From: a virus
IMG/VR virus record: IMGVR_UViG_3300009185_000120
Span: 1 to 22,090 of that record
Reading direction: 5' to 3' (one strand)
DNA length: 22,090 nt
Positions 1-20,312 of this stretch are shown here, one piece after another (the stretch's first letter is position 1; each line of letters starts with the position of its first letter). Below the pieces are notes generated by a model. That model was not told the DNA's origin. It saw nothing but the letters and a program-made list of their open reading frames with translations, and ran no database searches. A program made the translations under genes and the position numbers.

Positions 1-1707
1 AGCGTGTTCAGCGCCAGCAGGTGTATATACAGGCTTGCCATTTAATGTTCTTGGTGCAGCCCAAGCATCAACATCATCAGCCAACCCTTTATATAACTGA
101 GATAAAGCATTTTGTTGAGGCTCACTATATGAGCCAGTAGGAACACCTTTACCAACCCTGCTTAATTCAGCGCCTACTGTTTTTTGTACATCACGAAGCT
201 CTTTATACGATCCACCACCAGATTGAAGAAGCTTATCAATACGTTCAACAGTTTTACTGATAACTGCCGTATCTGAAGTAGTAGGGAATTGATCCAATAC
301 ATTAATTGTTGCAGTGTTTGTGTTATTTAATGGTATTTTTGTATTGCCAGCTAGTTTTTCAGCACGGTCAAATATTGGAGATACAGCATCTTTAGCATTA
401 CGATATTGCTGGCGCAAATCATTTGCAATTACTGCTTTTTCACCACCAAGTTTAGTTACAGATGCTGGTTTGACTTGCTCTGTAACTTTTTCAATCAAAT
501 CACGAACTTGAGCAGATTTTGCTTGATTTGCATCTTGAACTTGATAGCCAAATTGACGGGCTTTGTTTAGTGTTCCAGCACCTGGGCCACCAACATCACC
601 AACATCAATATTTACTCCACGTTGTGCAGCAGATTCAACTAACTGCCCTGTTTGCGGATTAGCGTAATTAGTCCCTGTTCTGACATTACCTGCTCGAGCT
701 GCAACAGCACCAGCAGGAAGACCTGCAGCTAAGTTAATGCCTAACAGTGCTAACGGGTTTTGAATATCGAATTGACTACGGGCAGTTTCAGCAGCACCAG
801 TGCCTGCTGTTGCACTTGCTGCTTGAGCAACTGGTTGAGCCGCTAAACCACGTCCAACTGCTTGAGTAGTCGCTCTACCTGATTGTTGAAGTAAGCCTCC
901 AACACCACCCATTGCAGGGATACCTGCTACTGCACGAGTAACATTACCAATGCCTTGCTCAAAGCCAGTTTGTGGTTGTGGCAAACCAAGCATAGTTGCA
1001 AAGTTTGACATTGCCTGGCTAGGTGGTTGCAATTGGCTACCAGTAGCCCTGTTAATCAACATATTTAATGGTGATCCAACAATATCAGCAACCTGTCCCA
1101 ATCCTTCCATACCATAACGAGCAGTCAATCCTACCTGACGAGCAACAGAATCTTGGTTTGGCTTTTTAGGAGTTTGTTGGACTATTGGCTCACCCAACAT
1201 TGATGGGTCAATATCACGAAAACCTGCACCTTGTTGTGTAGGTTGTACTTGAGTCTGTTGACTTGGTATTTGAGCTGGTAGACCAAGTAAAGATGGGTCA
1301 ATATCTCGATAATTAGCCATGTTTGTACCCACAACTTTCTGTACGTAATTCTGTGTTTCTTTAAATGGTGGAACACCACCATATTTGTCAACATTTGCTG
1401 GACCAGCGTTATAAGCTGCCGCTACCAAACTAGGATCTTGAAATCGCTGCGTCAATTGGTTTAGATATTTAACACCACCACGGATGTTATCTTTCCAATC
1501 CATGCGATTTACGCCTAAACCAGTAGCAGTTTCACTCATCAACTGCATAGGCCCATAAGCTCGATCACCAGTTTTTGTCTTTGGCCCTATAGCGTTGAAA
1601 TCACCGCCAGATTCTGTTTCTACAATCTTTTGCACCAAAGAAAAAGGAACGCCCTGCCTTTCGGCTTCTTGCCTAGCAAATTCGTAAACTTGTTCTCTGG
1701 TAGCCAT
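1..1707 (-). CDS. Virion-associated lytic transglycosylase (SLT domain), 3' end outside window
   Basis: I read this frame directly: it starts at ATG 1707 and stays open for 569 codons to the left edge, so the C-terminus is missing. Residues about 5-127 form a lysozyme-like SLT (GH23) domain. The likely catalytic Glu32 lies in V-E-T-E-S-G-G, followed by G-P-M-Q-L-M (52-57), A-A-Y-N-A-G-P (97-103) and E-T-Q-N-Y-V (117-122). Such domains cleave peptidoglycan between MurNAc and GlcNAc. After them comes a long Gln/Ala/Gly/Pro-rich region with no recognised domain, the layout of virion proteins such as T7 gp16, in which the enzyme opens the wall during DNA entry. The start overlaps the stop of the upstream gene in TAATG. 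A free lysis endolysin is less likely because of the length and the place at the end of the virion operon. The domain call is firm; the ejection role is inferred. Confidence 0.88.
   Translation of the reverse strand, partial: MATREQVYEFARQEAERQGVPFSLVQKIVETESGGDFNAIGPKTKTGDRAYGPMQLMSETATGLGVNRMDWKDNIRGGVKYLNQLTQRFQDPSLVAAAYNAGPANVDKYGGVPPFKETQNYVQKVVGTNMANYRDIDPSLLGLPAQIPSQQTQVQPTQQGAGFRDIDPSMLGEPIVQQTPKKPNQDSVARQVGLTARYGMEGLGQVADIVGSPLNMLINRATGSQLQPPSQAMSNFATMLGLPQPQTGFEQGIGNVTRAVAGIPAMGGVGGLLQQSGRATTQAVGRGLAAQPVAQAASATAGTGAAETARSQFDIQNPLALLGINLAAGLPAGAVAARAGNVRTGTNYANPQTGQLVESAAQRGVNIDVGDVGGPGAGTLNKARQFGYQVQDANQAKSAQVRDLIEKVTEQVKPASVTKLGGEKAVIANDLRQQYRNAKDAVSPIFDRAEKLAGNTKIPLNNTNTATINVLDQFPTTSDTAVISKTVERIDKLLQSGGGSYKELRDVQKTVGAELSRVGKGVPTGSYSEPQQNALSQLYKGLADDVDAWAAPRTLNGKPVYTPAGAEHA
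1186..1308 (-). repeat. Duplicated R-D-I-D-P-S-(L/M)-L-G motif in the transglycosylase protein
   Basis: Residues 134-144 and 164-174 of the transglycosylase protein repeat R-D-I-D-P-S-L/M-L-G-x-P, separated by a Gln/Thr/Pro-rich linker. At the DNA level the core GATATTGACCCATC is identical in both copies, while the flanking codons differ. The pair sits just after the enzymatic domain and may be a linker motif for binding or processing; no function is known to me. Confidence 0.7.
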
Positions 1708-3137
1708 TAGTCATAAACCCGATATGCGCCAGTTGGAAGTTGATATGCTGTTTTTCCTTTTTCAGGACCAGCTTTAACTTGAAACTGAGGCAAATATTTA
1801 CGCAACTTAGGATCTTCAAAAATAGAAGAACTACCTTTTGAGCTTTGTGACCATTTTTCAACTACGTCAGGAATAGGATTTGCAGTTACAAAATTGTAGT
1901 AATCTTTTTTCCGTTGATTTGCTACCTTTGTAAGATCAACATAATATTGAACAGCTTCTTTTTGGTTTGTTATTTGTGGCCCACGAGACGCACTAAATAA
2001 AATATCTTTATCTGAAGTTGCCCCTGATAAATCTTGAAGGTTTGAGGAGGCAACATCAGCAACAGATTGCAAGAATAAAGGAGAGTCAACAGAAACCGCT
2101 TTAGCTCTTTCGCCACCAACCCCCAAACCTGTTGCAATTTGAGCAACTTCAGATTTAAATGCCGCGAACTTACCTGGCTCAAATGCACCACGATTAATAA
2201 TGTTTTGCAGATTTTCTAAACTTCGGTCAGAACTAACAGCAGTTTGAAACCCTTTTAAAGCAGCATCTTTAATAGGCTTATATCCTTCATAAGCTTGTAT
2301 CTCAGCAGGAGACAAAGCTGATGGTTGACCTAACGCTTGAGCTTGTGTTGCAAAAGTTGGCCTTCCAGTTTGTAAATTAGGAACAGTTGTAGGAGTTGTT
2401 TGTAATGCAGCTTGTCCTTGTCCTAATCGTTCTGAATAATTTAATTGTTGAGTTGCTAGTGGAGCGCCTGGGATAACATTTGCGCCAATCATTCCACTTG
2501 CATCAAAACCAAGCATTTGGCCTGGCCTGACTTCTGGAGGAGTAGATTGAATTGCTGATTGCATATAGTTCTGTACAGGAGCCGCAGAATATCCACCAGT
2601 TAACGGGTTGTACTGGGATGTAATGCCTTTATCTTGTGTTGGCAAACCACTAAGAACATTTCCGCTTGCATCAACACGTAAATTGCCTTGGTATTTAGGT
2701 TGCATAGCCGTCAAAGTCTCACGAATTTGAGGTTGTGCAGGATTACCAATTAAACGCAAAGAATCTGTTAAAGCTCTGTTGTAATCAATAGGTGCATTTA
2801 ATATTGTTTGCTGGTTTTGAGCCGCACTTAATGTTGGGCCACGACCTTCTGCACCTAATGCACGTTGTCCTGCTTGCATTTGATTAGGAACATATTGCTC
2901 TAAGAAACTAGAAACTTCAGCACGTTGGCGTTTTTTCTCTTGAACATCTGATATGTTTTTCTGAGTAGATGTGTATTGCTCTGGAACACCCATAGCAGCT
3001 TTATAACCCATAGCAGGATCATTGCTTAGTAGCGAACCAAGCAAAAACTGTTGAGTGGCTTGCTTTTGAAGATCAGTCTTTTCTTTATCACTGAGACCAG
3101 TTAGAGCAGCATCTGACAATAAGCCAAAATCAAACAT
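1707..3137 (-). CDS. Putative internal virion (ejection) protein, 476 aa
   Basis: The gene lies between the giant repeat protein and the transglycosylase protein. It starts at ATG 3137 after the strong site TAAGGAAATAAT. I do not recognise a named domain. The protein is polar, rich in Gln, Ala, Ser and Pro, and I see no cysteine or membrane segment. Residues about 1-150 look helical and charged, the middle (about 150-290) is Pro/Gly/Gln-rich and probably extended, and about 280-400 looks helical again. The C-terminal tail is basic and aromatic. Its place in the last three genes of the virion operon, ahead of a wall-cleaving enzyme, matches internal core proteins of podoviruses (T7 gp14-gp16, P22 gp7/gp16/gp20). 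That role is inferred from position, not from sequence identity. Its TAA stop overlaps the next ATG. Confidence 0.72.
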   Translation of the reverse strand: MFDFGLLSDAALTGLSDKEKTDLQKQATQQFLLGSLLSNDPAMGYKAAMGVPEQYTSTQKNISDVQEKKRQRAEVSSFLEQYVPNQMQAGQRALGAEGRGPTLSAAQNQQTILNAPIDYNRALTDSLRLIGNPAQPQIRETLTAMQPKYQGNLRVDASGNVLSGLPTQDKGITSQYNPLTGGYSAAPVQNYMQSAIQSTPPEVRPGQMLGFDASGMIGANVIPGAPLATQQLNYSERLGQGQAALQTTPTTVPNLQTGRPTFATQAQALGQPSALSPAEIQAYEGYKPIKDAALKGFQTAVSSDRSLENLQNIINRGAFEPGKFAAFKSEVAQIATGLGVGGERAKAVSVDSPLFLQSVADVASSNLQDLSGATSDKDILFSASRGPQITNQKEAVQYYVDLTKVANQRKKDYYNFVTANPIPDVVEKWSQSSKGSSSIFEDPKLRKYLPQFQVKAGPEKGKTAYQLPTGAYRVYD

Positions 3138-3151
3138 ATTATTTCCTTATC
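3135..3151 (-). promoter_or_regulatory. Stop/Shine-Dalgarno overlap, 17-nt cassette copy 1
   Basis: GATAAGGAAATAATATG contains the TAA stop of the repeat protein, the Shine-Dalgarno AAGGA and the ATG of the 476-residue protein. The same 17 nt occur in front of the portal gene. The arrangement implies re-initiation by the ribosome that has just terminated. Confidence 0.75.
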
Positions 3152-6100
3152 TAAAAAGGCCAAGCAAGCCTTGACCTGAAGAAGAAGTTGACTGAATACC
3201 AGAACCACCAGCAGGGTTAATGCCCAAAGCTTGATTAATGATTTGCTGCTGTTCCAATGGCAGGTTTCTGATTGCATCCAGTTGTTGTTGAGAGAACTGT
3301 TGTTGGAAGCCACCTTGTTGAGCCAGAGCATTTGCCCCTGCAAGTCCCATTTGTTGACCTTGACCAGCAATGCCTGCAAGCTGATTTGATGCTGCAAGAC
3401 GCTGTTGATTACCAGTTAAACCAGCTTGTTGGTTAGCCAAATTAGCTTGTAAAAAACTTTGAGCGTTAGTCAAGCCAGCTTGCTGAGTTAACCCTGCTTG
3501 CTGGGCAGCAGCAGCATTAAGAGCCGCTTGATTACTCAAGCCTGCCTGATTGAATGCAGATGCACCAAACTGTGAAGCTTGGTTTTGAGCGCCCATGTTT
3601 GCCAAAGTCATTGCTTGCTGATTAGCAGCATTAAACTGACCCATTTGATTTTGTGCAGCAGCGTTAGCTAAACCCGCTTGATTAAATGCTGCACTACCAA
3701 ACTGTGCTGCTTGATTCTGTGCTGCTTGGTTAGATAAGTTAAATGCTTGGGTATTACCTGCATTATATTGAGCCATTTGGTTTTGAGCGGCAGCATTTTG
3801 CAAAGCAGAAGCATTCAGAGCGGCACTACCAAACTGTCCTGCTTGATTTTGCGCGGCTAAATTAGCAAGTGACATCGCTTGTTGATTACCAGCGTTGTAT
3901 TGAGCCATCTGGTTAGCAGCAGCAGAGTTTTGTAAGGCGGCAGCGTTTTGGGCGGCACTATTAAATTGACCAGCTTGGTTTAATGAAGCAGCATTGGAAA
4001 GACCTGCTTGCTGAAGATTAGCAGCATTAAATTGCTGGCCTTGATTAAGGGCGGCTTGGTTGGCAAGTGCAGCAGCGTTTGTAGCCCCTGCACCATATTG
4101 ACCTGCTTGATTCAAAGCAGCCGCATTAGACAAACCTGCTTGTTGTAGATTACCCGCATTAAACTGAGCCAAAGCATTCTGAGCCGCAGCATTTTGTAAA
4201 GCGGTTAGATTTGAGGCCGCAGCTCCAAATTGAGAAGCTCCTGTTTGGGCAGCAGCCCCTGCAAGCCCAGCCTGCTGAAGATTACCTGCGTTAAACTGAG
4301 CTAATGCATTTTGAGCAGCAGCGTTCTGAGCAGCATTTTGATTATTAGCAGCAGCCCCAAATTGAGATGCTTGGTTTTGTGCTGCTATGTTTGAAAGACC
4401 AGATTGTTGAAGATTACTTGCATTGAATTGTGCCAAGGCGTTTTGGGCAGCGGCATTTTGTGCGGCAATAGTATTCTGAGCATTAGCACCAAACTGAAAG
4501 GCTTGGTTTTGCGCCCCTTGCGTAGACAATCCTGCTTGCTGAAGTTGTTGGGCATTAAACTGCGCTAATGCATTAGCAGCAGCTTGATTCCCCATGCCAG
4601 CTTGCTGGAAGTTGCCAGCATTAAACTGAGCCATTTGATTAGCTGCTGCTTGATTTGCCAAAGATGCTTGGTTTCCTGCTTGAGCGCCAAACTGTCCAGC
4701 CGCATTAGCCGCAGCAGATCCTGCTAATCCTGCTTGTTGTAGATTACCAACGTTGAACTGGCTCATCTGATTCTGAGCAGCGGCATTCTGCAGTGCGGCA
4801 GCATTTTGTGCGGCAGATCCAAACTGAGATGCTTGGTTAGCGGCAGTTTGACTAGACAATCCTGCTTGTTGCAAATTACCCAGATTAAACTGACTCATTT
4901 GATTTTGAGCCGCAGCATTTGCTAATGATGTTTGATTTCCTGCTTGTGCAGCAAATTGTGCAGCAGCGTTCTGAGCAGCTTGATTGGATAACCCAGCTTG
5001 CTGGAAGTTTCCTGCGTTAAATTGTGCCATTTGATTAGCGGCAGCTTGGTTAGCTAATGCAAGTTGTTGAACATTTTGCGTGTTTGTTTGACCAACATTT
5101 AAGTCAACCCCTTGATTAGCAAGTGCTGCTCGCAATGAAGCATCTTGATTAGCTTGTGCAGCCTGTAAAGATGCCGCTTGGTTTAACTGTTGGGCTTGCA
5201 GTCCGGTAGATTGGTTAGCAAGTGATGCCCGTAAATTAGCATCTTGATTAGCCAAAGTTGCTTGTTGTTGCAATTGGGCATTTGTCAACCCATATTGGGT
5301 ATCAACACCTTGGTTAGCCAAGGCAGCACGTAAGTTTGCATCCTGATTAGCCAATCCAAATTGACCTGCAAGTTGCAATGATTGTTGTGTAGTAGCAGCG
5401 TCTTGAGCCTGGTTAAGCTGTTGCGCTTGCATAGTACGAGCAATATCAGCCTCAGATGCTTGCTGTGCAGCTTGATATGCAGCAGCATTCTGTTGAGCAA
5501 CTAAACGAGCCGCATTCTCTCCAAACGCGCGGTTTGTTTCAGCTTCAGCAACACCCTGGCGAGATCCACCAAACGCTTTAGCAGCAGTGGCAGATGCAGC
5601 AGTCTGTTGTTGTTGCAACTGACGTGAACGCTCTAAATCTTTAAGACTTTGTTCAGTTACAGCTTGTGTATATGGATTCATATACTGCTGAATATTCTGG
5701 TTTAAAAATGAACCAGCTTGAATATCACGAACATTTGCACGAGCTTGTGGGGCAATCTGTCCTAAAGCTTCAGAAGCAACTTGTGCGCCTGATACACCTG
5801 TAGAAAATACATCCCTAGCACCACTTCGTGCGGCTTGGGCGGCAATTGCTTGTTGAGCGGCAATACGCTCTGCAGCAACACGTTCTGCCGTAATTTGCTG
5901 GGCTGTGACATCACGAATATCACCACGACCTAATACTGCTGCTTGTGCGGCTTGTGCATCGCCAGCACCAACCCCAGCAAATTGGGCAGCGTTAAAACCT
6001 TGGCTTGTTGCAGCTTGTGCAGGACCGCCAGTCACTCCAGCAAATCTTTCAGCAGCATAACCTTGGGCGGCAGCATCAGCAGCAGGACCAGAAATAGCAC

Positions 6101-6977
6101 CACCAAAACGATCTGCTGTATATCCTTGACCAATAGCAGTAGCCGAAGGACCAGCACCAACACCAGTAAAACGTTCAATAGGAGCAGCAGTCTGACCTTC
6201 ATATCCTTGTGCTGTATAACCAGTAGCTTGAGCTAATCTAGCTGCTTCAGCTTGGGCGCCACCAAAAGTTGTTGCTCCATAACCACTTGCTTGAGATAAC
6301 GCAGCAGGAGCAGCTTGCGCTCCACCAAAAGTTGTTGCTCCATATCCAGTTGATTGAGCTAAATTAGCAGGAGCAGCCTGGGAGCCACCAAATTGATTTG
6401 CTGTGTATCCAGTACCAGCAGCTAAGTTAGTTGCTCCTGTTTGAGCACCACCAAATTGATTGGCTGTATAACCTTGGGCGGCAGCATTCTGAGATGCGCC
6501 AGCAGAAGCACCCGTTCCTGTTTGGGCTGTATAACCTAAAGCAGAAGCCAAAGCAGCAGGGCCAGCAGATGTGCCAGCACCTGTTTGTGCTGTATACCCT
6601 TGAGCGCCTGCTAATGTAGCAGGACCAGCACCAGAATACTGACCAGTTGTAGCGTTATAACCTTGTTGAGCAGCCATAGCTGCAGGAGCTACTGTTGCAC
6701 CCCCATAAGCATTGTATGCAACATTCTGTGGTTGGTAACCATATGAAGAAACCGCCATGTTTGCGGCAAGCTGCAGTTCGTTCTGTTGTCTACTATTAGG
6801 GTCAGCAAATTGACGGGTTGCGGAATATGCCGCTTGCTGGTCAGGGGTAAGTTGAGCAAACTCCCTCGGGCCTAATCCTGCCGCAACACCTTGAGCTTGT
6901 TGAACGTTTCCTAAATATGCATCCCGCAATGCAGGGTCAAGCGAACTTCCGCTACTGCTACTTCCACCTAGAGACAT
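3147..6977 (-). CDS. Giant Ala/Gln/Asn repeat protein, putative internal virion protein, 1276 aa
   Basis: The start at ATG 6977 is chosen over the upstream ATG 7013 because AAGGGG sits 6 nt before it and it leaves 1 nt after the upstream stop; the longer form would overlap that gene by 35 nt. In numbering from 6977: residues 1-80 are a phage-like N-terminus. About 85-345 are 21-residue G-Y-T-A repeats. About 424-506 are a core with Y-M-N-P-Y-T, A-F-G-G-S-R and A-E-T-N-R, a pattern I know from phage proteins encoded after the tail nozzle. About 542-640 are 33-residue repeats, about 641-1190 are 44-residue repeats, and the tail ends Gly/Ser-rich. The length greatly exceeds what I recall for relatives. 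Position suggests a core or ejected protein. Function is unknown; a fibre or structural filament is the alternative. Confidence 0.85.
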   Translation of the reverse strand: MSLGGSSSSGSSLDPALRDAYLGNVQQAQGVAAGLGPREFAQLTPDQQAAYSATRQFADPNSRQQNELQLAANMAVSSYGYQPQNVAYNAYGGATVAPAAMAAQQGYNATTGQYSGAGPATLAGAQGYTAQTGAGTSAGPAALASALGYTAQTGTGASAGASQNAAAQGYTANQFGGAQTGATNLAAGTGYTANQFGGSQAAPANLAQSTGYGATTFGGAQAAPAALSQASGYGATTFGGAQAEAARLAQATGYTAQGYEGQTAAPIERFTGVGAGPSATAIGQGYTADRFGGAISGPAADAAAQGYAAERFAGVTGGPAQAATSQGFNAAQFAGVGAGDAQAAQAAVLGRGDIRDVTAQQITAERVAAERIAAQQAIAAQAARSGARDVFSTGVSGAQVASEALGQIAPQARANVRDIQAGSFLNQNIQQYMNPYTQAVTEQSLKDLERSRQLQQQQTAASATAAKAFGGSRQGVAEAETNRAFGENAARLVAQQNAAAYQAAQQASEADIARTMQAQQLNQAQDAATTQQSLQLAGQFGLANQDANLRAALANQGVDTQYGLTNAQLQQQATLANQDANLRASLANQSTGLQAQQLNQAASLQAAQANQDASLRAALANQGVDLNVGQTNTQNVQQLALANQAAANQMAQFNAGNFQQAGLSNQAAQNAAAQFAAQAGNQTSLANAAAQNQMSQFNLGNLQQAGLSSQTAANQASQFGSAAQNAAALQNAAAQNQMSQFNVGNLQQAGLAGSAAANAAGQFGAQAGNQASLANQAAANQMAQFNAGNFQQAGMGNQAAANALAQFNAQQLQQAGLSTQGAQNQAFQFGANAQNTIAAQNAAAQNALAQFNASNLQQSGLSNIAAQNQASQFGAAANNQNAAQNAAAQNALAQFNAGNLQQAGLAGAAAQTGASQFGAAASNLTALQNAAAQNALAQFNAGNLQQAGLSNAAALNQAGQYGAGATNAAALANQAALNQGQQFNAANLQQAGLSNAASLNQAGQFNSAAQNAAALQNSAAANQMAQYNAGNQQAMSLANLAAQNQAGQFGSAALNASALQNAAAQNQMAQYNAGNTQAFNLSNQAAQNQAAQFGSAAFNQAGLANAAAQNQMGQFNAANQQAMTLANMGAQNQASQFGASAFNQAGLSNQAALNAAAAQQAGLTQQAGLTNAQSFLQANLANQQAGLTGNQQRLAASNQLAGIAGQGQQMGLAGANALAQQGGFQQQFSQQQLDAIRNLPLEQQQIINQALGINPAGGSGIQSTSSSGQGLLGLFR
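3540..5057 (-). repeat. Tandem 132-nt (44-residue) hendecad repeats, 11 copies
   Basis: Eleven in-frame units run without gaps. Ten are exactly 44 residues and one (the fourth) is 66, that is one and a half units. A twelfth degenerate unit continues to about 3408. The typical unit is L-x-N-x-A-A-x-N-Q-M-x-Q-F-N-x-G-N, then L-Q-Q-A-G-L and x-Q-A-x-Q-F-G. It breaks into four 11-residue pieces, with Leu/Phe recurring at 12- and 10-residue spacing. Eleven residues equal three helical turns, so straight or slightly right-handed helical bundles are expected. Codons vary between copies, so the array is old or under selection. Confidence 0.9.
5058..5354 (-). repeat. 33/34-residue repeats (three units) preceding the 44-residue array
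   Basis: The motif A-N-Q-D-A-(N/S)-L-R-A-(A/S)-L-A-N-Q recurs three times at 33-34 residue spacing (3 x 11). It leads directly into the 44-residue units and differs from them in carrying Asp and Arg. It looks like a charged, possibly older, form of the same hendecad. Confidence 0.8.
5943..6725 (-). repeat. N-terminal 63-nt (21-residue) G-Y-T-A repeats, about 11 copies
   Basis: Units of 21 residues begin G-Y-(T/G/N)-A, continue with T-F-G-G-A-Q or a similar string, and end in Ala-rich P-A-x-L-A-Q. Most copies have exact 21-residue spacing; one unit near the middle is longer. The Tyr, Phe and Gly-Gly positions are the most constant. The composition suggests turns and beta or extended structure, unlike the helical C-terminal array. 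Confidence 0.85.
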
Positions 6978-6989
6978 ATTATTCCCCTT
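6978..6989 (-). promoter_or_regulatory. Ribosome binding site deciding the start of the repeat protein
   Basis: AAGGGG followed by AATAAT leads into ATG 6977. The TAA stop of the upstream gene is inside the AATAAT spacer. No comparable site precedes ATG 7013. Confidence 0.75.
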
Positions 6990-7449
6990 GTATCCATTTA
7001 ATTGCATCATCATGTGCCGTAAAATAACGCCACATATCTGTACTTACTTCTCGGGCTGCTTCTTTACCTCTAAGCAGCATAACAATCATTGGTGCGATTT
7101 GTAAGGAAATAATTCGTAATGTGAGCGCATAAGCCCTGTCATTAGAATCACCCTTCTCAAGTTCAACAGAGTCAAGCCATGCGTTGATACTCTGAATAAC
7201 CAATGGCATTAAGAATGCCTTGTTTTGGTTAAAAAACTCATTTGTTGGTAGTGTGACCAAAGCACTCCAAAAGACTGCATCAATCTCTTTTCTGCTTGGC
7301 TGATTATCTTTGTCTACTAAATCATCCCATAATTCAGCAATACTTGACAAAGAGACAATAAAGTCTACAGCACTTTGGTTACCACCAAACCATTCTAACA
7401 GTTTAGAATTTCTTGCGTCACGCCATTCTTGGCTGTCATGTTCAATCAT
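6979..7449 (-). CDS. Conserved phage protein of unknown function, helical, 156 aa
   Basis: I recognise the general pattern of a small helical protein encoded next to tail nozzle genes of podoviruses but cannot name a domain. The N-terminus is charged. Residues 38-44 read A-E-L-W-D-D-L, and 107-127 form a hydrophobic stretch with an Arg inside it and one at its end, more like a buried helix than a clean membrane span. There are many Trp residues (9, 20, 41, 61, 91, 140, 152). The start at ATG 7449 has only a weak AAAGAA upstream. The gene ends 1 nt before the next ATG, so the two are probably translated together. A chaperone or minor virion role is possible from the context only. Confidence 0.8.
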   Translation of the reverse strand: MIEHDSQEWRDARNSKLLEWFGGNQSAVDFIVSLSSIAELWDDLVDKDNQPSRKEIDAVFWSALVTLPTNEFFNQNKAFLMPLVIQSINAWLDSVELEKGDSNDRAYALTLRIISLQIAPMIVMLLRGKEAAREVSTDMWRYFTAHDDAIKWIQGE

Positions 7450-7478: not shown

Positions 7479-8954
7479 TTATCGCATACTTCCAGGACTT
7501 CCACTAAACCGGATAATTCCAACTCGCCAATTAGTTAATTTAACGCCCTCAATCTTTGCGGCAATCTGCCTACCAGTTATGCGTACTGAGGTAGGGCTAT
7601 TAACTGAGTATGGCCCATAATTGTATTCAGTGGCATTTGGATAGAACTTAGTACTGAATCTAACCTGGACATCACCTGCTGTGTTTTCATCAGGAACTAA
7701 TCCTGTCAAATTCATAGTTCTTTCCCCATTACCCAACTCTATAGGGCCAGACTCAGCAAACAATGTTTGCCCATCATAGGCAAATCCAACTTCATGCTCA
7801 TAGACATATCCATCTGTAGAAACCATAATTGGATTAGCAAAGATACCACGATCTGTACCGCAAGTTCGTGCTAAAGTGCCAATAGCCCAATGGCCTTCTC
7901 GATAGTTGTAAGAAACATAAGAATCTACTTCATTTGAAGCAGAACTTGGGTAAAACCACCAAATCTCACCAAATGTTGAGTTGTGTACACAATAGACTTT
8001 TGATGACTGAGTTGTGTTCATGTTACTAAACACATAGTCAGAAACATCACAGGGCAATGGCTTAACAAAACCATCGTAAATCCAAAAGCCTGATCCAGAC
8101 ATCCAGATACAAGCGTTGTCAGTGGCAGCTACTGATTGCTTAGAAATAACTCCACAACCAGAGCCAACACGCTCAAAACTGTAAATAAACGGTGGTCCAA
8201 TGTATGTGGCAGTATGTACATCCACATCAGTAAACAGAATAGTTGAGCCACGTATGCGTTTAGCGCATTGTAAAGAGCCAATTGTGGTTAACTCAAAGTC
8301 ACCAGCTTGGTTGGTAGCGGCAGGAGTCCATACAGTATTGTTTTCTTGGTCACACCATTGGACTTTACGAGGATTACCACCAGCGCCTAATGCAAACAAG
8401 AATCTTTCTTGCGTAGTAATTAAACCAGTACAGCTAGTTGGTGCGTTAGTAAGTGCAACAGCATCACTAGCAGTATTTAACTGCCATTCAAGTAACTTCC
8501 CATCTTTAGATGAGCAGGCAACTAAGTACTCACCCCATGTATCTAGACTCCAAGTAGTAGCAGCAGTGTATTGGCCTAGATCTGGACGAGCAACACCATA
8601 AGCAGATGTTCCATAAGTTCCATATCCATAACCAATTTTTAGTATAGCATCAGCGTCACCAACAGTAAAACTAGCTGGGGTAATGTCAGTAAGAGTACCA
8701 TTCTCATTCATTGAATAAAGGTTTGAATGCGTACCAATCCCAATGCGTCTATTATTGTTGTTATCTCTCCAATTAATCAAACCTCGAGCCATGCCCGTCA
8801 ACTGAGATGTAGCACGTTTTCTCCATCCACCCACAGGACGGATAGTGCTTTCATACCAGCGGACCAAATTTGATCCGCTCCAACGACCTTTTGACTGATA
8901 TTCAGTCCCGTTTTTAAATACGCCTGGTGGAATTTGGAGTGGAATGTAAGCCAT
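7479..8954 (-). CDS. Tail nozzle / DNA stabilisation-like protein, 491 aa
   Basis: The N-terminus (P-P-G-V-F-K-N-G-T-E-Y then K-G-R-W and R-P-V-G-G-W) and the run of short Trp/Tyr/Gly-rich beta stretches match the propeller-like stabilisation and tail nozzle proteins of podoviruses (P22 gp10, T7 gp12 type). These close the portal channel and form the distal tail. Pieces such as Q-W-C-D, G-S-G-F-W-I-Y-D-G and G-E-I-W-W-F-Y-P fit repeated blades in about residues 60-400, followed by a beta C-terminal domain. The length is near the usual 450-500. The start at ATG 8954 lacks a clear Shine-Dalgarno and follows the tandem stop TGA-TAG of the previous gene by 12 nt, so re-initiation is likely. The call rests on fold-level pattern, not on a catalytic motif. 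Confidence 0.85.
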   Translation of the reverse strand: MAYIPLQIPPGVFKNGTEYQSKGRWSGSNLVRWYESTIRPVGGWRKRATSQLTGMARGLINWRDNNNNRRIGIGTHSNLYSMNENGTLTDITPASFTVGDADAILKIGYGYGTYGTSAYGVARPDLGQYTAATTWSLDTWGEYLVACSSKDGKLLEWQLNTASDAVALTNAPTSCTGLITTQERFLFALGAGGNPRKVQWCDQENNTVWTPAATNQAGDFELTTIGSLQCAKRIRGSTILFTDVDVHTATYIGPPFIYSFERVGSGCGVISKQSVAATDNACIWMSGSGFWIYDGFVKPLPCDVSDYVFSNMNTTQSSKVYCVHNSTFGEIWWFYPSSASNEVDSYVSYNYREGHWAIGTLARTCGTDRGIFANPIMVSTDGYVYEHEVGFAYDGQTLFAESGPIELGNGERTMNLTGLVPDENTAGDVQVRFSTKFYPNATEYNYGPYSVNSPTSVRITGRQIAAKIEGVKLTNWRVGIIRFSGSPGSMR

Positions 8955-13861: not shown

Positions 13862-14482
13862 TTACCCCAAAGAACGGGCGCGAACAAGTGGAGTTGAAGC
13901 AACAGACGCCCTTTGATCTGCTATCTCAATGTCGCTTATGGAGTTGGCATACATCTGACCCCATACAGCTAGACGTTCATCATCTTTTAAATATGGTGCA
14001 GCCTCCATAAGCGTACCATACAGGTACAAGTCTGGGGCATAAGCTAAAAGCCAGTTGCTTGTGTTTGAATCACTTAACGCAGGAATCTTAGCATAATATG
14101 TAAGTTCTGCACTATATGTTGCGTCTGGAGAAGGAATAAACTCCAGTTGCGTACCAGTAATTGTGTAATAAACTGGCTGACCAATAGATACATACCTGTT
14201 GGCCTTTAACTCATCTCCTTGTGCTTCAGTTACAAACTGAAGTCTGACAATGGGATTGGTGTTTAATTGGAATTCTTTGGCTTGTAGCCAATCAGCAGGA
14301 TAGGCAAAAAATGAAGACTCAATCTGACCTTCAGAACGCTTAATCATTTGGCGTGTACGAAGTTTGCGGTTGAATTTTGCTTCTGCAATAGTAATAAAGC
14401 TTGGAATAACAGAAGTCAGGTCATCTCGATTAAGATAATCCGCTATTGTTGCTTTAAGTCCTGCAAAAGTATCAAGTGCCAT
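13862..14482 (-). CDS. Head-to-tail adaptor (SU10-type adaptor), 206 aa
   Basis: The N-terminal helices with F-I-T-I-A-E-A-K-F-N-R-K-L-R-T-R-Q-M (about 29-46), the Y-P-A-D-W-L stretch, and the helical segment with L-Y-L-Y-G-T-L-M-E-A-A-P-Y-L match the SU10-type phage adaptor family. A ring of these proteins docks under the portal and receives the tail nozzle. The length is typical. The start overlaps the end of the glycosyltransferase gene by 11 nt without a clear Shine-Dalgarno, so it is probably translated by coupling. The match with the SU10-type capsid protein further upstream supports the assignment. Confidence 0.85.
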   Translation of the reverse strand: MALDTFAGLKATIADYLNRDDLTSVIPSFITIAEAKFNRKLRTRQMIKRSEGQIESSFFAYPADWLQAKEFQLNTNPIVRLQFVTEAQGDELKANRYVSIGQPVYYTITGTQLEFIPSPDATYSAELTYYAKIPALSDSNTSNWLLAYAPDLYLYGTLMEAAPYLKDDERLAVWGQMYANSISDIEIADQRASVASTPLVRARSLG

Positions 14483-15137
14483 TTTCTACATCCCTACACA
14501 TTAGTGTGTGTTCATGTTTGTATTCAAATGTGCCAATATGAAAGATCTCTTTAGAAAGATCTTGGTCAACATAAGTTTTATGCCCATTTTGAGCTGCTCT
14601 ACGGCAGAACCATACATCTTCACCAATGTAGTCCTCCGCAGCGGGAACCCAAGGGATAGCAAACCAAGGATATTCCATAGATTTATAGACTTCGGATTTG
14701 ACAAGCATTACACCCATCCCGCAGTAGTCTACGTCAACAAGTCCTGTTGAATCATCCTCAGTATATACCCGATTTATAAATGTTGCATCCATATCTGGGG
14801 TATTTTTTTTCACCGCAATCGGCTCCGTTGGAAACCTACGTTTCGCATAGTTCCCACAGACTATGCCAATATCATGTTTTAACAAGCGAATGATGGTATC
14901 TTTTGGAAACCTCATATCGCTATCTAGCCACATGGTGTGTGTACACTTAGCCTCAATAGCATCCCTAGCTAAATCCTGACGTTGTGCCGACAACAATGTA
15001 CCTGAACTAGTATAAATAACCACTTTATGATTGGTTGTTCCTACGGTGTATCCAACTAGCCTAGCTAAATCAAAAGCAAATCCAGAGTTAACAAAATCCC
15101 GTGTTGGAACCAAAATCCCAATGGTCATACTATCCAT
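14472..15137 (-). CDS. Glycosyltransferase, GT-A fold (family 2-like), 221 aa
   Basis: A metal-binding D-S-D (72-74) lies in M-W-L-D-S-D-M-R-F, preceded by the helix R-Q-D-L-A-R-D-A (53-60) and followed by G-M-G-V-M-L-V (140-146) and G-E-D-V-W-F (172-177), where Asp174 or Glu173 is the likely base. H200 in F-H-I-G may bind metal. These are the parts of a GT-A nucleotide-sugar transferase. Length and the absence of membrane segments suggest a soluble enzyme. It could glycosylate a virion protein or alter a host surface sugar against superinfection; the window does not decide this. ATG 15137 is preceded by GGAG with 7 nt spacing and overlaps the upstream stop in TAATG. It is unusual for its place among capsid-tail connector genes. 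Confidence 0.88.
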   Translation of the reverse strand: MDSMTIGILVPTRDFVNSGFAFDLARLVGYTVGTTNHKVVIYTSSGTLLSAQRQDLARDAIEAKCTHTMWLDSDMRFPKDTIIRLLKHDIGIVCGNYAKRRFPTEPIAVKKNTPDMDATFINRVYTEDDSTGLVDVDYCGMGVMLVKSEVYKSMEYPWFAIPWVPAAEDYIGEDVWFCRRAAQNGHKTYVDQDLSKEIFHIGTFEYKHEHTLMCRDVENGT

Positions 15138-19895: not shown

Positions 19896-19909
19896 ATTAT
19901 TTCCTTATC
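19893..19909 (-). promoter_or_regulatory. Stop/Shine-Dalgarno overlap, 17-nt cassette copy 2
   Basis: GATAAGGAAATAATATG, identical to the site at 3135-3151, contains the TAA stop of the Ala-rich gene and the Shine-Dalgarno and ATG of the portal gene. Confidence 0.75.
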
Positions 19910-20312
19910 GAGCGCCTATGTAAGGGAGGATTCCAGAATTAGTATTTTGCAATATAGATGGAATGCCACCAGCATAATTGTTAGCCATCCCACCGTAGGG
20001 GTTACCCATTTGTGGAGCCATATTAAATTTGTCATCTTCTCTTTGATTAATTTGATATTTAAATGCTGATCGAGCCATATCACCCATTGTTGCATTTGGG
20101 TTCGTCATGGAGTTATAAAAATCCATGCTAGGAGCCATTTGCTGTTTTGCAAAGCCGCCAAGAGTATCACCAATAGACATTGGGCTTGTCATTGCTGCTT
20201 CTGCTACTGGAGCCGCTGGCGCTGCTGCTGCAATAGCTCCTTCTGCCACTGGAGCTGCTCCTGCTGCTGATGCTGCCAAAGATTCAAGAAATGCTGCGAG
20301 TAAGGCTTCCAT
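19905..20312 (-). CDS. Ala-rich phage protein of unknown function, 135 aa
   Basis: About half of the first 41 residues are Ala, in a stretch with Pro-Val-Ala-Glu repeats and no Lys or Arg, so it may be a helix or a flexible arm; it is too interrupted by Pro and Glu to call a membrane segment or signal peptide. Residues about 42-135 are polar with Met, Asn and Gly (Q-M-A-P, M-G-N-P-Y-G-G-M-A-N-N-Y) and end in G-I-L-P-Y-I-G-A-R. No domain recognised. It starts directly after the stop of the cysteine-rich gene and its own stop forms part of the portal ribosome site, so its translation is probably tied to both. Possible minor head or packaging protein. Confidence 0.75.
   Translation of the reverse strand: MEALLAAFLESLAASAAGAAPVAEGAIAAAAPAAPVAEAAMTSPMSIGDTLGGFAKQQMAPSMDFYNSMTNPNATMGDMARSAFKYQINQREDDKFNMAPQMGNPYGGMANNYAGGIPSILQNTNSGILPYIGAR

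Follow-up and report, generated by a model that had tools for sequence, protein, structure and literature searches.

Lockstep repeat arrays on the two arms of a probable DNA-ejection protein from an uncultured phage

Our analyses have identified two tandem repeat arrays of unlike sequence that have changed in length together within a single virion-operon protein of an uncultured phage. The protein is encoded in the window, i.e. the whole stretch of 22,090 nucleotides that was analysed (IMG/VR virus record IMGVR_UViG_3300009185_000120), and among its relatives the lengths of the arms on the two sides of a conserved core fall on one straight line. We consider it probable (roughly two chances in three) that this is a lengthened member of the ejection-protein family phrog_4287 which folds as an antiparallel hairpin rod, the paired arrays setting the length of the rod. 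The ejection-protein family is known; no earlier description of the paired arrays in lockstep was found in the literature searched. The features of the repeat protein and of its neighbours in the window are as follows.

1..1707 (-): virion transglycosylase (SLT), truncated at the window edge
1707..3137 (-): protein of 476 aa that matches no family (473-528 aa long in relatives)
3147..7013 (-): repeat-protein ORF (P0001), 1288 aa as listed
3150..3407 (-): conserved C-terminal region of the repeat protein (..LDAIRNLPLEQQQIINQALGIN..), which supplies the C anchor for the length law
3408..5057 (-): C arm, an array rich in Ala/Gln/Asn whose units are 44 aa (4 x 11) long, helical by prediction in a relative
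4578..4643 (-): additional 22-aa half unit, the only one in the C array, mirroring the 32-aa N unit
5058..5354 (-): stretch of irregular 11-residue repeats that joins the core to the C array
5355..5702 (-): conserved core, proposed hairpin tip (NQNIQQYMNPYT .. AFGGSRQGVAEAETNRA .. LAGQFG)
5787..5930 (-): 5-residue repeats adjoining the core (ITAER VAAER IAAQQ ..)
5931..6728 (-): N arm, an array rich in Gly/Ala/Thr/Tyr and built of 21-aa units (GYTAxxFGGAQAxPAxLAQAT)
6126..6221 (-): the one N unit of 1.5x length (32 aa), in third place among the listed spacings when counted outward from the core
6720..6977 (-): conserved N-terminal region (MSLGGSSSS..LDPALRDAYL..), its LDP being the N anchor of the length law
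6979..7449 (-): 156-aa protein with no assigned function, phrog_21390
7479..8954 (-): nozzle-type virion protein, phrog_3287, of constant length (490-499 aa) in relatives

The array on the C-terminal side, described in an earlier note on this DNA as a 44-residue array at 3408-5057, was recovered there and corresponds to aa 653-1202 (550 aa). Its residue autocorrelation is 0.63 at a shift of 44, 0.56 at 88, 0.40 at 22 and 0.29 at 11; in 1000 shuffles no shift gave more than 0.26. The sub-periods of 22 and 11 within the 44-residue units bear out the 11-residue rhythm claimed for it, and motif spacings of 44 with one extra 22 confirm its single 66-residue unit. The array does consist of repeated units, but about 12.5 units fit it in place of the eleven plus a degenerate twelfth that had been counted, and the alternating 12 and 10 residue spacing of Leu/Phe is seen in part of the array and not throughout. 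It is made up almost entirely of A, Q, N, G, L, S and F and has zero charged residues, and the 11/3 = 3.67 period of large hydrophobic residues is absent from the Fourier peaks listed (2.75, 4.39, 5.5, 3.14 and 10.98). The hydrophobic pattern is not that of a classic hendecad coiled coil and, hence, any helix formed by the C arm would pack through Ala and the N arm.

A second array, overlooked in the earlier note, is present on the N-terminal side (aa 118-361; unit of 21 residues, one unit of 32), where it partly coincides with a 63-bp tandem repeat. Its 21-aa unit is abundant in Gly and Pro, and toward the core the array passes into 5-residue repeats (ITAER VAAER IAAQQ). The consensus units of the N and C arrays show no resemblance to one another, and dN/dS values of 0.25 and 0.15 in the two arrays indicate purifying selection on both. 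The core of the window protein, located between them at aa 438-553, contains NPY and FGGSR separated by 37 aa. The likely start of the protein is the ATG at 6977, because AAGGGG is found shortly upstream of it, and this gives a repeat protein of 1276 aa. As listed, the ORF runs into the upstream gene (6978-7013); many relatives start at the matching MS.GGSS position.

The search for metagenomic relatives with the core and with variation in repeat length, which had been proposed in the earlier note, yielded 89 distinct proteins of 396-1353 aa. Arm lengths were measured as the distances between the anchors LDP (N), NQNIQxYMNPYT (core) and LDAIRNLP (C), with open-ended fragments excluded. In the first 56 distinct complete relatives, in which the C arm ranges from 212 to 850 residues, C = 2.083 N - 56.9 (r 0.99984, residual SD 2.2 aa), and 33 further IMG/VR relatives, obtained in a second scan using a core profile and lying outside the discovery set, follow the same law (slope 2.07, r 0.9992). 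For all 89 proteins C = 2.08 N - 52 (slope 2.079, r 0.9998, residual SD 2.6 aa), and phylogenetic contrasts for them, computed on a tree built from the conserved parts, have a slope of 2.077 (r 0.9997), with the same sign in 60/60 non-zero contrasts. Within the second set L125 departs most from the law, by 11.5 aa. Four proteins of the first scan (L028, L068, L071 and its copy L073) failed the strict anchors; once these are relaxed, L028, L068 and L071 are off the law by 3 to 11 aa. The lengths of the C arm are spaced in multiples of 11 residues (48 of the 56 equal 3 mod 11). The step-wise change of length, for which the earlier note had steps of 22, is supported with steps of 11, 22 and 44. 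Relatives that keep the core and are free of the array, the case named in the earlier note as one that would count against its reading, do exist (L079, 408 aa; L125, 396 aa), but the rest of the protein is not unchanged in them, since the N-side array is lost in equal proportion.

The individual changes that make up this law are also matched in size and position. Indels of 5 aa in the N-side 5-residue repeats match indels of 11 aa on the C side, and the paired sizes (N:C) observed are 5:11, 10-13:22, 18:33, 21:44 and 32:66. Between the window protein and L001, for example, a 21-aa change in the N arm at 193-214 residues from the core is matched by one of 44 aa at 414-458 from the core on the C side. 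In 28 pairs of proteins with one indel per arm the distances from the core correlate with r 0.979, the best r in 10,000 permutations being 0.66, and within each of the pairs L032/L031 and L011/L006 a matched gain occurs together with a matched loss. The order of full and half units outward from the core likewise agrees between the arms in most relatives, in a comparison where some rows have units merged because a marker motif is missing. This order is N 21,21,32,21.. and C 44,44,44+22,44.. in the window protein, N 32,21,32 and C 66,44,66 in L050, N 32,32 and C 66,66 in L022 and L038, N 32,21,21 and C 66,44,44 in L015, and N 32,21,21,21 and C 66,44,44,44 in L008; the L051-L061 clade (N 16,21; C 22,44,33) shows no clean match. 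Such matched, mirrored changes in unlike arrays indicate that the arms lie side by side and antiparallel, with the core at the turn, and the pairing of the arrays and of the antiparallel arms appears well supported by these comparisons. A parallel pairing of the arms was rejected, since the distances of the paired indels from the core increase together. Coincidence, shared ancestry and a simple constraint on total length were rejected on the basis of the contrasts, the mirrored positions and the unit order.

The window protein has no Pfam match and no PHROG match at E <= 0.1 (hmmscan), and the short form L079 also has no direct PHROG match; the link to phrog_4287 is made by profile comparison. 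Intermediates among annotated phages (e.g. MW805364 gp18) match both the core (tblastn) and phrog_4287, and hhalign of the short-form profile against a profile of distant members including SU10 gp21 and gp22 gives a probability of 99.6 and an E-value of 4.7e-24. SU10 gp21 and gp22 belong to phrog_4287, annotated "DNA ejection protein". In the alignment SU10 gp21 is without part of the NPY..FGGSR core and both SU10 proteins are without the literal motif; NPY and FGGSR are spaced 37 aa apart in every distant relative parsed. Membership of the window protein in this family is therefore likely, and the portal and capsid proteins in the window are also of SU10 type. In SU10, gp20-24 are present in virions and gone from the genome-release intermediate (PMC9509320), and the homologue in phage phiM5 is annotated as detected in the phage particle proteome. 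SU10 gp21 and gp22 resemble the window protein by profile and in lying among ejection genes beside an SLT transglycosylase gene; they differ in being 322-350 aa long with no 44-aa or 21-aa arrays seen. They are not resolved in the SU10 virion map and match no solved structure by sequence. Ejection proteins are poorly resolved in the virions of short-tailed phages. The phrog_4287 family is filed under DNA, RNA and nucleotide metabolism in PHROGs, which hides it from virion-protein searches.

These results uphold the placement of the array in a virion operon and, through the profile link, a probable part in the ejection apparatus, but not the suggestion that it is a different solution from the known ejection proteins, since the protein appears to be a lengthened form within a known ejection-protein family, that of SU10 gp21/gp22. 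No described protein with this array, as had been stated earlier, turned up in the literature searched, where nothing relevant was found on the array itself or on 11-residue repeats in ejection proteins. Searches of genome contigs and of plasmids found no relative, and the genome contigs thus give no clue to the host.

Some distant members of the family have arms lengthened with other sequences. In the base form of the distant members the N arm has 87 and the C arm 133 residues, and other forms differ from it by -5:-11 and +10:+22 (N:C). In L185 (539 aa) the arms are longer than in the base form by +44:+92, with a clean 5-residue repeat on the N side and an 11-residue repeat on the C side whose sequences are unlike those of the window protein. 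An independent, charged array is found in L210:1-7551, L211 and L212 (783-792 aa), where the C arm shows periods of 18, 29, 47 and 58 (which sums of 7s and 11s fit), the N arm has 5-residue repeats, and the arms exceed the base form by about +128:+239 on a slightly different measure. The 1:2 ratio is broken by the phiM5-type relatives (L085, L175), at about +43:+39, and this type may be a helix-helix variant of the hairpin. Several distant relatives carry a C-terminal Peptidase_S74 domain, which a Pfam scan did not find in the window protein or L079. Sinorhizobium phage phiM5 protein 27 and the other S74 relatives share with the window protein the core of NPY, 37 aa and FGGSR, but they carry S74, are annotated as tailspike or endosialidase chaperone, and, in the phiM5 type, have arms that are not 1:2.

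An alpha helix rises 1.5 Å per residue, so that 11 residues span 16.5 Å. Beside a C-arm helix, each N-arm residue must rise 3.3 Å (5 residues per 11) or 3.14 Å (21 per 44), and these are extended-chain values; the N arm would thus be extended if the C arm is alpha-helical. This combination is suggested by the geometry, with weak support from the structure models. AlphaFold predicts, at low confidence (pLDDT 62, pTM 0.28), a near-continuous helix over aa 264-704 of L021 and coil over aa 113-167, and the C side of the short form L079 is again predicted as helix, also at low confidence (pLDDT 54, pTM 0.31). In the L021 model, however, the 5-residue-repeat segment (aa 168-214) is helix, which is at odds with an extended rise, and part of the N side has a pLDDT under 50. 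The helical bundle suggested in the earlier note fares well to the extent that the protein is, by these models, probably a long helical rod; the hendecad hydrophobic period that would go with it is lacking. Foldseek of the L021 model gave no PDB match and mostly weak BFVD matches with an rmsd too large for use, and single-sequence and profile searches found no PDB match to the window protein. Whether an 11-residue-unit helix is lined antiparallel by an extended chain of 5-residue units, zipped to it from end to end (5:11, 21:44), is in our judgement evenly balanced. No earlier description of a pairing rule between a helix and an extended chain was found in the literature searched.

The window protein is, most probably, a DNA-ejection protein; the rod, if fully helical, would measure some 26-122 nm across the relatives (FGGSR to C anchor: 26 nm in the shortest form, 115 nm in the window protein, 122 nm in L001). 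In the arrangement that we infer, the N-terminal arm would run outward in extended form to the conserved core, which would be the tip, and the C-terminal arm would come back as an almost straight, long alpha helix built of 11-residue units, bringing the N- and C-terminal regions together at the base of the rod. Because five extended residues would equal eleven helical ones in axial length (~16.5 Å), the arms could lengthen only together. Several copies would assemble into an oligomeric bundle forming a rod or tube, stored in the head, which would exit through the nozzle and extend the path of the DNA as a conduit; the paired arrays would set the length of this rod, which would be free to evolve. 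A straight rod of 115 nm exceeds the head expected for a genome of 36-40 kb, so that it would have to be stored in a bent or unassembled state, as other ejection proteins are assumed to be. A comparable mode of working is known for T7 gp14/15/16 and DEV gp72/gp73, helical proteins that are stored in the head and refold into an envelope-crossing tube (PMC10925440), but no sequence match to them was found and no repeat arrays are described there. From the sequences at hand, a length-variable injection rod or conduit would be the best available reading.

The same length law and mirrored indels would arise if the N arm paired with the C arm of a neighbouring subunit to give a domain-swapped tube, and known ejection channels are indeed oligomeric (T7 gp15; DEV gp72:gp73, a C9 tube ~300 Å long, PMC10925440). 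With the core as tip, however, pairing within one molecule is simpler, and the swapped form seems to us rather unlikely. The straight 115-nm rod that would not fit in a small head also raises the question of an external position, as a central fibre or tail needle inserted into the nozzle, the array setting its reach. The location of the gene close downstream of the nozzle gene and the S74 ends of several distant relatives are consistent with this, the Peptidase_S74 chaperone domain being typical of fibres and spikes. On the other hand, SU10 has a separate tail needle, gp18 (phrog_16534), and its gp21 and gp22 are ejection proteins; with neither a phrog_16534 match nor S74 in the window protein, we regard an external rod as distinctly unlikely.

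Two arms that carry a tip domain and must match in length are also found in SMC proteins, to which the coupled arms and mirrored indels of the window family are alike in working, and the arms of natural SMC proteins come in discrete length classes (Burmann et al. 2017, PMC5344682). There, both arms are helical, whereas the arm ratio of 2.08:1 in the window family points to one helix and one extended strand, and there is no relationship by sequence. An ordinary antiparallel coiled coil with both arms helical would obtain its 2:1 ratio from a C arm that folds back; the predicted helix in the 5-residue-repeat segment and the ratio near 1 of the phiM5-type relatives would suit it, but every N indel has as its partner a single contiguous C indel twice as large, where a fold-back needs two, Gly and Pro are frequent in the 21-aa N unit, and the predicted C arm is a single nearly continuous helix, which leaves this explanation a slim chance. 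Hardly credible is a low-complexity, disordered spacer grown by slippage, whose arm lengths would match through shared ancestry or chance: the uncharged Ala/Gln/Asn-rich composition and the low pLDDT in part of the N side would accord with it, but all 60 contrasts keep the law, indel positions mirror each other, unit order matches, and dN/dS is low in both arrays.

The antiparallel hairpin rod, if correct, would mean that sequence comparison alone has yielded both a topology (antiparallel arms, core as tip) and an axial register (5 against 11 residues). It would represent a phage injection rod that is extendable about fourfold in matched steps, and thus a natural and evolvable molecular ruler, present in a single group of uncultured phages and, built from other sequences, also in distant relatives such as L185. 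In otherwise similar gene sets the protein occurs naturally in a series of lengths between 396 and 1353 aa, so that the length and purpose of the rod are directly testable, and the pattern of matched repeats may be usable for building protein rods of chosen length.

The repeat-protein gene sits between the nozzle gene and the SLT/ejection genes. In the relatives, the lengths of these neighbours (nozzle, 156-aa, 476-aa and SLT proteins) show no correlation with array length, and the array is hence not matched to another protein of this operon. Elsewhere in the window, a glycosyltransferase-like ORF (recognized by eye) is located inside the virion gene block at 14472-15137, and a 42-bp tandem repeat at 20194-20273 lies within a small Ala/Pro-rich ORF (19905-20312) beside the portal gene.
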